Of a stretch of DNA of 21,272 nucleotides, positions 9,588 to 15,905 are shown in pieces (position 1 is the stretch's first letter; every line of letters begins with the position of its first letter). The stretch is from a virus. A model generated the notes under the pieces. It ran no database searches and was not told the DNA's origin. It was given only the letters and a program-made list of their open reading frames with translations. The position numbers and the translations under genes are program-made. The DNA lies in the IMG/VR virus record IMGVR_UViG_3300025466_000209, positions 1 to 21,272 of that record; one strand, written 5' to 3'.

Positions 9588-9659
9588 CCTAGGGTAGCTT
9601 AAATCAGAAAAGCCCTTGATTGTATCTTGGAGATGTAGGTGCAAATCCTTCTCCTAGGC
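9588..9659 (+). tRNA. tRNA-like structure, possibly degenerate (anticodon uncertain, UGU Thr or GUA Tyr)
   Basis: A cloverleaf can be drawn. The acceptor stem CCTAGGG (9588-9594) pairs with TCCTAGG (9652-9658) and can extend by AG/CT outside. TA at 9595-9596 fits positions 8 and 9. The D-stem is GCTT/AAGC (9597-9600, 9610-9613). The T-arm is GTAGG-TGCAAAT-CCTTC (9635-9651) with one T-T mismatch. The anticodon arm is the weak part. CCTTG-ATTGTAT-CTTGG (9614-9630) would give anticodon UGU but has two T-T mismatches and no base 26; shifting by one gives GUA with a U at position 37. The D-loop lacks GG, the discriminator would be C, and no CCA is encoded. It may be a real but divergent phage tRNA, or a decaying one. 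Confidence 0.45.
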
Positions 9660-9670
9660 TTATTTTTATT

Positions 9671-10078
9671 ATGAGAAAGAAATCAATAAAGAAGAAAGCT
9701 GTTCCAAAGCCTAGAGTGGTTAAAACTAGAAATGCAGGTACATTAACAGAATCAGGATTCTGGAGCTTTATAAGAAGTGCATTGAGACAAAAGAGTAGAT
9801 GGTGGAAACCAATTACACAATGTAAAATGGAAGCACGTAGAGCATATAAAGGTGCTAATAAACGTCAGAAGTTTGAATATCAATGTAATGAATGTAAAGG
9901 ATGGTTTCCTGATAAACTGATTAATGTAGACCATATAGTTCCTGCTGGTAGCTTAAATTGTGCAGAAGATCTTCCAGGGTTTGTAGAAAGACTATTTATA
10001 GAAAATGAGGGGCTTCAAGTACTTTGTTCAAGTTGTCATGACAAAAAGACAGCATTAGAAAGAGAAAACAAATCATAA
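9671..10078 (+). CDS. HNH endonuclease
   Basis: From the ATG at 9671 the protein has 135 residues. It has a basic N-terminus (MRKKSIKKKAVPKPR), then FIRSALRQKSRWWKPI, a first CxxC (CNECKGWF), the HNH core VDHIVPAGS, and a second CxxC (CSSCHDKKT), which together form the ββα-metal nuclease with a structural zinc site. This compact type is common as a free-standing phage HNH protein and also occurs in homing elements. An earlier in-frame ATG at 9620 falls inside the tRNA-like structure, so I prefer 9671, which is preceded by TTTTTATT. A NUMOD1 fragment lies directly downstream in another frame, so the gene may belong to a homing insertion after RIIB. Confidence 0.85.
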   Translation: MRKKSIKKKAVPKPRVVKTRNAGTLTESGFWSFIRSALRQKSRWWKPITQCKMEARRAYKGANKRQKFEYQCNECKGWFPDKLINVDHIVPAGSLNCAEDLPGFVERLFIENEGLQVLCSSCHDKKTALERENKS

Positions 10079-10178
10079 AATATTTGGTAGTTTGCTCTTT
10101 TCTTGTTATAGAGGTGCTATTAGAAACTGTTTAGTTGGACTAGCTAAAACAGCAGGAGGATTTATTTGGAAATATTAA
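10059..10178 (+). pseudogene. NUMOD1 remnant of a homing endonuclease
   Basis: The 118 bases between the HNH gene and the next start hold an open frame without a usable ATG. It reads FGSLLFSCYRGAIRNCLVG and then LAKTAGGFIWKY followed by TAA at 10176-10178. The ending KTAGGFIWKY after a short helix-turn-helix is the signature of NUMOD1, a DNA-binding module at the C-terminus of many homing endonucleases. The frame differs from that of the HNH gene and opens only at about 10059. The rest of the nuclease is absent, so this is a scar of a deleted or recombined homing endonuclease, or the HNH protein once continued into it before a frameshift. Confidence 0.7.
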
Positions 10179-10196
10179 AACTAAATCAGACAAGCA

Positions 10197-13245: not shown

Positions 13246-14224
13246 ATGGATTTAGGACTGGAAGCATTGAGTAACATTACAATTTTTAGTAAATACGCAA
13301 AATATTTACCAGAATTGAAAAGAAGAGAAACCTGGGATGAGATAGTGGATAGGTATGAAAGTATGATGATCAAAAAGTATCCTAAATTAGAAATTGCTAT
13401 AAAGCAAAGTTCACAGTTTATAAGGGAGAAAAAGGTGTTACCATCTATGAGAGCTCTGCAATTTGCAGGAGTGGCAGCTGAAGTGAATAATTCACGCATA
13501 TACAACTGCTGTTTCCTACCAATTGATAGCTTACATAGCTTTAGTGAGACAATGTTCTTATTACTAGGAGGTACAGGAGTGGGATATTCTGTTCAGAAGC
13601 ATCATGTTGACCAACTACCCACTATTAAGAGAAAAGAAACTCACAAGAACAGAAACTGGCTTATTGAAGATTCTATCATGGGATGGGCAGATGCTATCAA
13701 AGTGTTGATGAAGTTCTATTTTGAAGGTGGTGCAAAGCCTAAGTTTGATTTTAGAGCCATTAGACACAAAGGAGCAAGACTAGTTACAGCTGGAGGTAAA
13801 GCTCCTGGTCCAGAACCTCTTAAAATATGTCTTATGCATGTAGATGCTATAATGGAACGTAAAGAGAATGGATCTAAGCTTACACCATTAGAATGCCATG
13901 ATATATTATGTCATATTGCTAATAGTGTTCTTGCAGGTGGAATTAGAAGAAGTGCAATGATTGCTTTGTTTTCTTATGATGATGAAGAAATGATCACTTC
14001 TAAGTATGGTGATTGGTGGGAATTGAATGAGCAAAGAGGTAGAGCTAACAATTCAGCTGTTCTTGAGAGAGGAGTTGTTACACAACAGGAGTTTAATTCT
14101 CTATGGGAAAGGATTGAAGCAAGTGGATCTGGTGAACCTGGAATCTATTGGACTAACAATAAAGATTGGGGTACTAATCCATGTTGTGAAATAGCTTTAC
14201 GTCCTTATCAATTCTGTAATCTCT
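13246..14224 (+). CDS. nrdJ: Class II ribonucleotide reductase, exon 1
   Basis: This is the N-terminal 326 residues of an adenosylcobalamin-dependent reductase of the monomeric RTPR type. It converts ribonucleotides to deoxyribonucleotides. Visible landmarks are PSMRALQFAG, YNCCFLPIDSLHSF (redox Cys), LLLGGTGVGYSVQ, and the active-site segment NPCCEIALRPYQFCNL. In that segment the Cys, Glu and second Cys fall at +0, +2 and +11, the same spacing as Cys408, Glu410 and Cys419 of the Lactobacillus leichmannii enzyme. I start it at the ATG at 13246, which follows an A-rich leader, rather than at 13177, whose extra residues come from the hairpin region. The frame stops just past the splice site at a TAA inside the intron. 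Exon 1 ends after T14224, where it is joined to 14953. Confidence 0.9.
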
Positions 14225-14422
14225 AAACTTTATGGAGATTTAAAACCCTGAGAATTGCTGGGAACTCTGACCACATAATGGTGAAGACAATCAGCAGCCG
14301 AGCTTAGAAATAAGAAGGTTCAACGACTAGTCGAAAGACGTACACTCAAGTGAGTGGAAGCACAGGGCCCCTAAAAAGGGTGATGATATAGTCTGAACAA
14401 TATAGAAATATATTGATGAAAA

Positions 14423-14454
14423 TTTGGAAATCTCGAATAAGTTTTGTAACTTTG
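14423..14454 (+). promoter_or_regulatory. Promoter inside the intron, before the endonuclease gene
   Basis: TTTG (14423-14426) and TAACTTTG (14447-14454) are separated by 20 bases, an exact fit to the Bacteroidota consensus TTTG-N19-21-TAnnTTTG. Transcription would begin about 10 bases before the ATG at 14470, leaving a very short leader. This would let the endonuclease be made from its own transcript rather than only from the unspliced reductase RNA. Confidence 0.65.
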
Positions 14455-14469
14455 TAAAAATACAAAATT

Positions 14470-14925
14470 ATGAGAATAAATCGAGAAGGTTATAAAATAT
14501 CTGAGACAGAACGAGAATGTACTAATTGTGGTACAATGTTTCTTAAAACCTCTAAAACAGTGACTCTTTGCAATAAATGTAATTCAGAACGAGTAAAATG
14601 TACAGATCCTGAATCAAAAATGTTACAAAGAGCAAAAAGTCGAGCTAAATTAAAAGGTTTAGAATTTGATTTAACTGTAAAGGATATTATTATACCAAAA
14701 TATTGCCCAATTCTAGGTTTAGAATTACTTTGTAAAACAGGAATTTCAGGAGGACAAAATAATTCTCCAGCATTAGATAGAATAGATTCAAAAGGGGGCT
14801 ATACTAAAACTAATGTAAGAGTTATAAGTCACTTAGCAAATATGATGAAAAGTTGTGCTAATAATTCTGAAATGATAAAATTTGCAGATTGGGTTAATAA
14901 AAACATTCCAAAGGATTCTAATTAA
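14470..14925 (+). CDS. Intron-encoded HNH-type homing endonuclease
   Basis: The 151-residue protein has an N-terminal zinc ribbon (CTNCGTMF, LCNKCN), then SRAKLKGLEFDLTVKDI, CPILGLELLCKTG, and the segment SPALDRIDSKGGYTKTNVRV followed by ISHLANMMKS. The DRIDSxxGYxxxNVRVIS pattern followed by N-x-M-K is typical of a group of phage HNH-superfamily endonucleases. The first catalytic His of a classic HNH is not obvious in it. It sits inside the group I intron, so it presumably cuts the intronless reductase gene near the splice junction and promotes intron homing. The ORF starts shortly after a promoter and ends 27 bases before the 3' splice site. Confidence 0.85.
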   Translation: MRINREGYKISETERECTNCGTMFLKTSKTVTLCNKCNSERVKCTDPESKMLQRAKSRAKLKGLEFDLTVKDIIIPKYCPILGLELLCKTGISGGQNNSPALDRIDSKGGYTKTNVRVISHLANMMKSCANNSEMIKFADWVNKNIPKDSN

Positions 14926-14952
14926 GAAGTAACGCACTTAATTGAACATATG

Positions 14953-15905
14953 GTGAGGTGAATGTTAGTGATATAGAAGATCAAGAAGATCTAAACAATC
15001 GTGTAGCTGTTGCAGCTTTCTTTGGTACATTACAAGCAGGATTCTTTAACTTCCATTATTTAAGAGATGTATGGCAGAAAACCACTGAAAAAGATGCTCT
15101 TTTAGGAATTGGTATGACTGGTATAGCTTCTGGTGAGATTTTGAAATACAACTTGGAATATGCTGCTAATACAGCTATGACAGTTAATAGAGACATCTCT
15201 GCTCTTATAGGAACTAATGAAGCAGCTAGAATCACATGTATTAAGCCTTCTGGGACCACTAGTCTTGTATTGGGTACTAGTTCAGGAATTCATGCTTGGC
15301 ATGCTCCTTATTACCTGAGAACAATGAGGTTCAATAAGAATGAAGACATTGCTATGTATCTAGAGATAAATCATCCAGAACTATGTGAAGATGATGTACT
15401 TAGACCAAAAGATACATTATGTGTAAGAATTCCTGTTAAAGCTCCAGAAGGATCTATATTCAGAACAGAGACAGCAATTGATACATTAGAGAGAGTTAAG
15501 AAGTTCTCTACAGAATGGATTAAACCAGGACACATCAAAGGAGATAACACACATAATGTAAGTGCTACAATTTCTATTGATAAAAATAGAATATACACTT
15601 CTATTGACATGTCTGATGGTAAAGGAAATCAGATTACATTATCAGAACAAGGTTGGTTAGATGAATGGAAAGCTGTAGGACTTTGGATGTGGGAGAATAG
15701 AGATGTATACAATGGCTTGTCAGTTTTGAATTATGATGGAGGGAGTTATGTTCAGGCACCTTTTGAAGATATTACAGAAGATCAATATAATGCACTAATT
15801 GGTACATTAAAATCTATAAATCTCATTAAGGTGATGGAACTAGATGATAATGTTGAATTTTCCCAAATAGCCAGTTGTGCTGGAGGAGCTTGTGAAATAG
15901 TATAA
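14953..15905 (+). CDS. nrdJ: Class II ribonucleotide reductase, exon 2
   Basis: This is the C-terminal 317 residues of the reductase. It begins with the two bases that complete the split TGT codon, then EVNVSDIEDQEDL. It includes LLGIGMTGIASGE, CIKPSGTTSLVLGTSSGIH (the conserved PSGTTS motif near the active site), HAWHAPYYLRTMRF, and the C-terminal CAGGACEIV with the Cys pair that transfers reducing equivalents. The ATG-less start at 14958 seen in a simple ORF scan is artificial. The joined protein is 643 residues, somewhat shorter than the 739-residue L. leichmannii enzyme. No other RNR subunit is visible, which fits a cobalamin-dependent class II enzyme. Confidence 0.9.

Follow-up and report, generated by a model that had tools for sequence, protein, structure and literature searches.

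The window analysed here is a 21,272-nt stretch of viral DNA (positions 1 to 21,272 of the IMG/VR record IMGVR_UViG_3300025466_000209), and the nrdJ exons and intron elements described below lie on its plus strand. The phage is classed as crAss-like on its uracil-DNA glycosylase and primase neighbours. Two reading frames with similarity to ribonucleotide reductase flank a 728-nt insertion at 14225-14952. The upstream frame (13246-14224) is exon 1 of nrdJ, with the N-terminal 326 codons and the T of codon 327, and begins at an ATG (13246) that is the start in most homologues. The downstream frame (14953-15905) is exon 2, in frame with exon 1 once spliced. The two exons match the PHROG ribonucleotide reductase family phrog_367 (9.6e-75 and 4.4e-38) and the NCBIfam model TIGR02505 for RTPR (1.5e-43 and 4.1e-22); the TIGR02505 scores are below the curated full-length cut-off, as would be expected when a short, divergent phage enzyme is matched in two pieces.

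Joining T14224 to G14953, as an earlier note on this DNA had proposed, restores an open 643-aa NrdJ that reads FCNLCEVNVSD, the motif across the junction being NPCCEIALRPYQFCNL-C-EVNVSD. The motif NPCCE...FC can be read directly in the spliced protein, with an NPC-x-E...C spacing that fits Cys408, Glu410 and Cys419 in the enzyme from L. leichmannii. The putative Cys419 equivalence rests on this spacing, and the alignment of NrdJ to 1L1L (1.2e-19) ends before the Cys419 motif. Homology and the NPCxE/Cys419 motifs together point to a class II (B12-dependent) ribonucleotide reductase as the interrupted gene, the identity already given to it in the earlier note. That note had placed the insertion two residues after the Cys. 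The active-site location stands, but the count changes slightly: starting from the Cys419 equivalent, the intron splits the third codon (C-N-L-C), with two residues between.

Four independent lines, namely P1, P10, the open spliced frame and intronless alleles, agree on the predicted intron boundaries. The 5′ exon reads ...TTC TGT AAT CTC T14224, and its last seven bases (AATCTCT, 14218-14224) pair with the internal guide sequence GGAGATT (14234-14240) in a 7-bp P1. The terminal pair is the previously suggested wobble U14224.G14234, and a U.G is present at this place in 13 of 13 relatives. At the 5′ junction, U14224 and the two bases that follow it spell an in-frame UAA. The last intron base is G14952, directly before GTGAGGTGAATG. 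With the junction between G14952 and G14953, the P10 intron strand (14227-14233) pairs with the 3′ exon (14953-14959) at 7/7 positions, and only there; shifting the junction by 1-3 nt leaves 2-5/7. In the relatives the loop and the exon both change and 5-7 P10 pairs are retained. Finally, the intronless alleles of two IMG/VR contigs, L018 and L019, read ...TTCTGTAATTTATGTGATGTAAATG... without a break and lack exactly 14225-14952, so the insertion lies at the position first proposed, with G14952 as its final base.

The insertion was identified as a group I intron by its match to RF00028, by the intronless alleles and by covariation. The Rfam match (14205-14415) scores 71.4 bits against a cut-off of 50, with E-values of 7.4e-18 and 3.1e-20. 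A fast-filter Rfam scan of the whole window missed this 71-bit intron and a slower setting recovered it; for stretches of this kind, no weight should be placed on a fast scan that finds nothing. We assembled 13 related introns on a hand-written structure of 55 pairs (P1, P3-P9, P7.1 and P7.2). Across this set 97.7% of the cells are paired, and 26 of the 55 pairs show changes on both sides, a count that exceeds that of every shuffle (0/500). When partners were slid by 1-3 columns, only 31-42% were paired. The group I call of the earlier note is thus borne out by both the model score and the covarying core.

Compensatory changes occur in most helices of the core. They affect 4/5 pairs of P3 (5′ strand 14246-14250, 3′ strand 14363-14367) and 4/6 pairs of P4 (14256-14261/14291-14296), which encloses P5 (14266-14268/14285-14287) and P5a within 14256-14296. 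They also affect 3/4 pairs of P6a (P6 and P6a, 14297-14319), 3/4 pairs of P8 (14369-14380) and 6/7 pairs of P9 (14398-14415). The guanosine-binding helix P7 (GACTA, 14325-14329; TAGTC, 14389-14393) is invariant in 13/13 introns and therefore contributes no covariation support. Between P7 and the 3′ strand of P3, all 13 introns keep two hairpins (14330-14356), of which P7.1 (14330-14339) has compensatory changes and P7.2 (14343-14356) is invariant. We take these two hairpins to be marks of subgroup IA and assign the intron accordingly, which, with the RF00028 score, supplies the covariance-model search and subgroup suggested earlier. A 3′ terminal hairpin (TTAAG/CTTAA, 14922-14941) includes the stop codon of the intron ORF, and its stem varies among the relatives, reading TCAAG/CTTGA in L007, L008, L009, L011 and L012.

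The intron contains a 151-aa ORF (14470-14925), absent from the earlier note, which we annotate as a putative homing endonuclease on the strength of its PHROG match, its profile and fold similarity to PacI and its dN/dS ratio. The best PHROG match is the endonuclease family phrog_3322 (8.8e-34), with a further endonuclease match at 3.6e-16; searches of Pfam and NCBIfam with the ORF gave nothing useful. Four cysteines (C17/C20/C34/C37) form a zinc ribbon, and D103-R104 and N124 align with D92-R93 and N113 of PacI. PacI (3ldy) is the best PDB relative by profile, at a weak E of 0.079. The AlphaFold model of the 151 residues (pLDDT 80, pTM 0.57) has strands at 100-104 and 116-120 followed by a helix at 121-129, and in a Foldseek search with this model PacI was the best hit and the sole one below 0.001 (E 7e-4, TM about 0.43, 15% identity). 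The weak profile match and the model-based fold match thus suggest a ββα-metal nuclease nearest PacI. Among 13 aligned relatives the active-site pair is D-R in 12 and D-K in L003; the classical HNH D-H pair is absent from this set, and PacI likewise has D-R. To our knowledge, the D-R pair has not been seen in characterised homing enzymes. The D-R...N...N pattern is conserved in the relatives, and omega values of 0.09-0.36 against them indicate that the ORF is kept by purifying selection.

Nine more IMG/VR contigs share this intron and its site, and L108 adds a partial one. Its presence was mapped on a tree of 66 NrdJ proteins, built with the columns around the intron site left out. The distribution requires seven changes, at least six of them forced by strongly supported branches. 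The introns of L004 and L006 are 96% identical to that of the window and their exons only 75-76%. The intronless L018 and L019, in turn, share about 99.7% identity with the window across 10-13 kb around nrdJ; exact-match scans for further members of the window's phage species found none beyond these two. The Leu codon before the insertion is CTC in 10/10 intron-bearing alleles and in 2/60 intronless ones. P1 requires CTC, which is otherwise the least common of the Leu codons here.

The purifying selection on the intron-encoded nuclease argues for a homing intron, and the scatter of the intron is at odds with the nrdJ tree; together they mark it as a probable mobile group I intron. The earlier note had suggested homing between unrelated phages. 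Homing itself is favoured by the selected nuclease, by near-twins with and without the intron and by co-conversion-like patches in the exons (below). Transfer between unrelated phages at this exact site is not: every contig found with the intron there has an nrdJ closely related to that of the window, and the unrelated cultured phages Rhizobium RHph_N3_13 and Roseobacter CRP-7 have a related intron 7 nt upstream of it.

Related nrdJ genes carry other insertions as well. In-frame intein-like insertions lie between the cysteines of NPC/C (active-site Cys408; the slash marks the insertion) in L095:2072-4921 and at IYNC/C in L051:2108-4948. The nrdJ of L006 has a second group I intron (L006:1071-2101, RF00028 56.2 bits) near codon 110 (GGTG/VGFS), with a GIY-YIG-type ORF, and thus contains two introns. 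Introns and intein-like insertions together occupy at least four different points in nrdJ.

Elsewhere in the window, a 78-aa ORF with NUMOD3 repeats only (260-496) is probably a homing endonuclease remnant. At 9994-10195, next to an HNH gene (9668-10078), the window has about 129 bases that contig G005 (that of L018) lacks (roughly 10048-10176), and differences between the two cluster there; contig G002 (that of L019) matches the window in this part. A tRNA-like match at threshold (RF00005, 30 bits), for which ARAGORN made no call, lies at 9588-9659, directly upstream of the HNH gene.

Differences between the window and its intronless near-twin L018 are concentrated around the insertion. Over about 9 kb there are 24 (or 28) differences, and 12 of them crowd into 293 exon bases, defining an unstranded patch at 14088-15108. 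For this pair, 6/12 differences fall within 13 codons of the junction (p 7e-5). Two other pairs of intron-bearing and intronless alleles have a similar excess in the 78 of about 1100 bases at the junction, with 6/15 differences for L010/L069 (p 3e-4) and 8/36 for L012/L061 (p 0.003). Pooled over the three pairs, 20 of 234 bases differ near the junction versus about 43 of 3081 elsewhere. As a control, 31 close intronless pairs showed a milder excess at the site (0.072 per base near it versus 0.046 elsewhere), so some recombination or variation is intrinsic to the region. One intronless pair, L032/L062, has a strong local excess at nrdJ codons 314-340 (17/59 differences in 78 bases), which possibly reflects old homing followed by loss, or intron-free conversion. 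Co-conversion on homing is textbook behaviour (PMC3984707). The junction-centred differences give moderate support to such co-conversion here, at a site that is not otherwise neutral. The 12 patch alleles have no match among the sampled intron-bearing alleles, which leaves the donor unsampled. Among intron-bearing phages, distance-binned identity at third codon positions had no clear rise near the site, which is consistent with short tracts and saturation.

The patch could also have arisen in the opposite direction. If the ancestor had the intron, an intronless nrdJ may have replaced the intron and its flanks in the L018 lineage, and L018 does have rare alleles (V at aa 379 and D at aa 328, for example) where the window has the common ones. 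However, alleles private to the L018 lineage are predicted by gain as well, the same junction pattern recurs in two other independent pairs, and the contrast between 96% intron and 75% exon identity implies arrival by transfer in at least some lineages. We consider such a loss improbable, if by no means far-fetched. Recent gain in the window's lineage is the simpler and likelier reading, because of this same contrast in identity.

Two further alternatives, both very unlikely in our judgement, concern whether the element works at all and what its ORF does. The insertion might be a degenerate, non-splicing relic that has broken nrdJ in two or left halves that work as separate polypeptides, and a split phage ribonucleotide reductase that works without splicing does exist (Aeh1 nrdA, PMC3653736). 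Yet all the core helices are intact and covary, P10 has been kept through changes on both partners, the intron ORF is under purifying selection, and both exons are intact and in frame, which speaks against a relic. The ORF, for its part, might be a host-takeover protein (an Srd-like sigma decoy) and not a homing endonuclease: relatives in RHph_N3_13 (L002:3001-3447) and S-CBS4 (L164:2794-3369) carry the annotation Srd sigma-factor decoy or anti-sigma factor, and the ORF itself has weak PHROG matches to Srd families (0.002-0.006). These are outweighed by its best PHROG matches, both endonucleases (8.8e-34 and 3.6e-16), and by the fold match to PacI, the location within an intron and the conserved active-site pattern. 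This endonuclease family had no Pfam match, and in some phages its members bear a sigma-factor decoy annotation.

We therefore regard it as very likely that the nrdJ of this crAss-like phage harbours a group IA intron that is mobile and self-splicing. Splicing, cleavage, and gain rather than loss in the window's lineage are inferred from sequence, and the following course of events is proposed. The end of the 5′ exon would pair with the guide in P1, and exogenous guanosine would attack after U14224. With the 3′ exon aligned by P10, the freed exon end would then attack after G14952, and joining of the exons would give the 643-aa reductase. In unspliced RNA, the in-frame UAA (U14224-A-A) would stop translation at the 5′ junction. 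In a mixed infection the PacI-like nuclease may cut or nick intronless nrdJ near the Cys419 codons, and repair from the intron-bearing copy would move the intron together with short flanking stretches of exon.

Relatives of the nuclease with 51-57% identity lie inside nrdJ group I introns of L002 (Rhizobium phage RHph_N3_13), L003 (Roseobacter phage CRP-7) and L014 (IMG/VR). These introns are inserted at TTCTGT/AAY, between the Cys419 and Asn420 codons, and have the guide GCAGAA. We judged the relationship of the ribozymes from identities and BLAST neighbours. The cores of the three are 63-75% identical to that of the window, whose core has nearer relatives in Staphylococcus phage introns (79% over 164 nt), and the L014 core has partial matches to another crAss-like phage. 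Free-standing nuclease relatives were also found immediately downstream of an uninterrupted nrdJ (L013:2968-3585, L127:2830-3441 and L129:2968-3435); two of these three are from bacterial metagenome bins and are possibly phage contigs. Tentatively, and with less confidence than we have in the intron itself, we suggest that one PacI-like nuclease lineage centred on the Cys419 codons has joined at least two group I ribozymes 7 nt apart and also exists free-standing. If so, nuclease and target together would stay constant and ribozymes would be recruited to them, as collaborative homing predicts. The two insertion sites 7 nt apart offer a concrete test of how nuclease and ribozyme become paired.

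Phage ribonucleotide reductase genes with homing group I introns are well known, and lists of split nrdJ genes exist (PMC3653736). A search of the open-access literature brought up no paper describing an intron in these phages or at this position of nrdJ. Demonstrations of homing usually rely on a few cultured phages. In the present case, near-twins with and without the intron, and their junction-centred differences, come from uncultured crAss-like phages, so that natural homing, tract length and an exon requirement (CTC set by P1) may be read from sequence.

Among known systems, the introns of Twort nrdE are placed close to residues important for function, and one of them codes for an HNH homing enzyme that is active (PMC3653736). 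The T4 introns (td, nrdB, nrdD) and those of Twort nrdE resemble the window's in the group I core with IA-type extra P7 hairpins, in the conserved site within a gene of nucleotide metabolism and in the presence of an ORF in a loop. In contrast to these, the window's host gene is the class II nrdJ, not a class I or III gene, its ORF follows P9 and encodes a PacI-like nuclease with D-R for D-H, and its host is a crAss-like phage. The introns of RHph_N3_13, CRP-7 and L014 share the class II nrdJ, the region of the gene and a related ORF, but differ in site, guide and core; the CRP-7 paper (PMC6918029) makes no mention of an intron. The system of F-CphI and the cyanophage psbA intron (collaborative homing, PMC6083498) likewise has a nuclease lineage that occurs free-standing beside the target gene and introns that occupy this gene elsewhere, and F-CphI belongs to the beta-beta-alpha-metal superfamily, as the window's nuclease is predicted to. 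However, F-CphI has the DHHRN (Endo VII) motif whereas the window's family has D-R, and the window's intron carries its own nuclease gene. PacI is a small beta-beta-alpha-metal nuclease, as the window's is predicted to be, with zinc-binding cysteines and aligned active-site residues, but it is a restriction enzyme with an 8-bp palindromic site and has low identity to the window's ORF. Set against these systems, the intron is a known kind of mobile element in a new position in its host gene.
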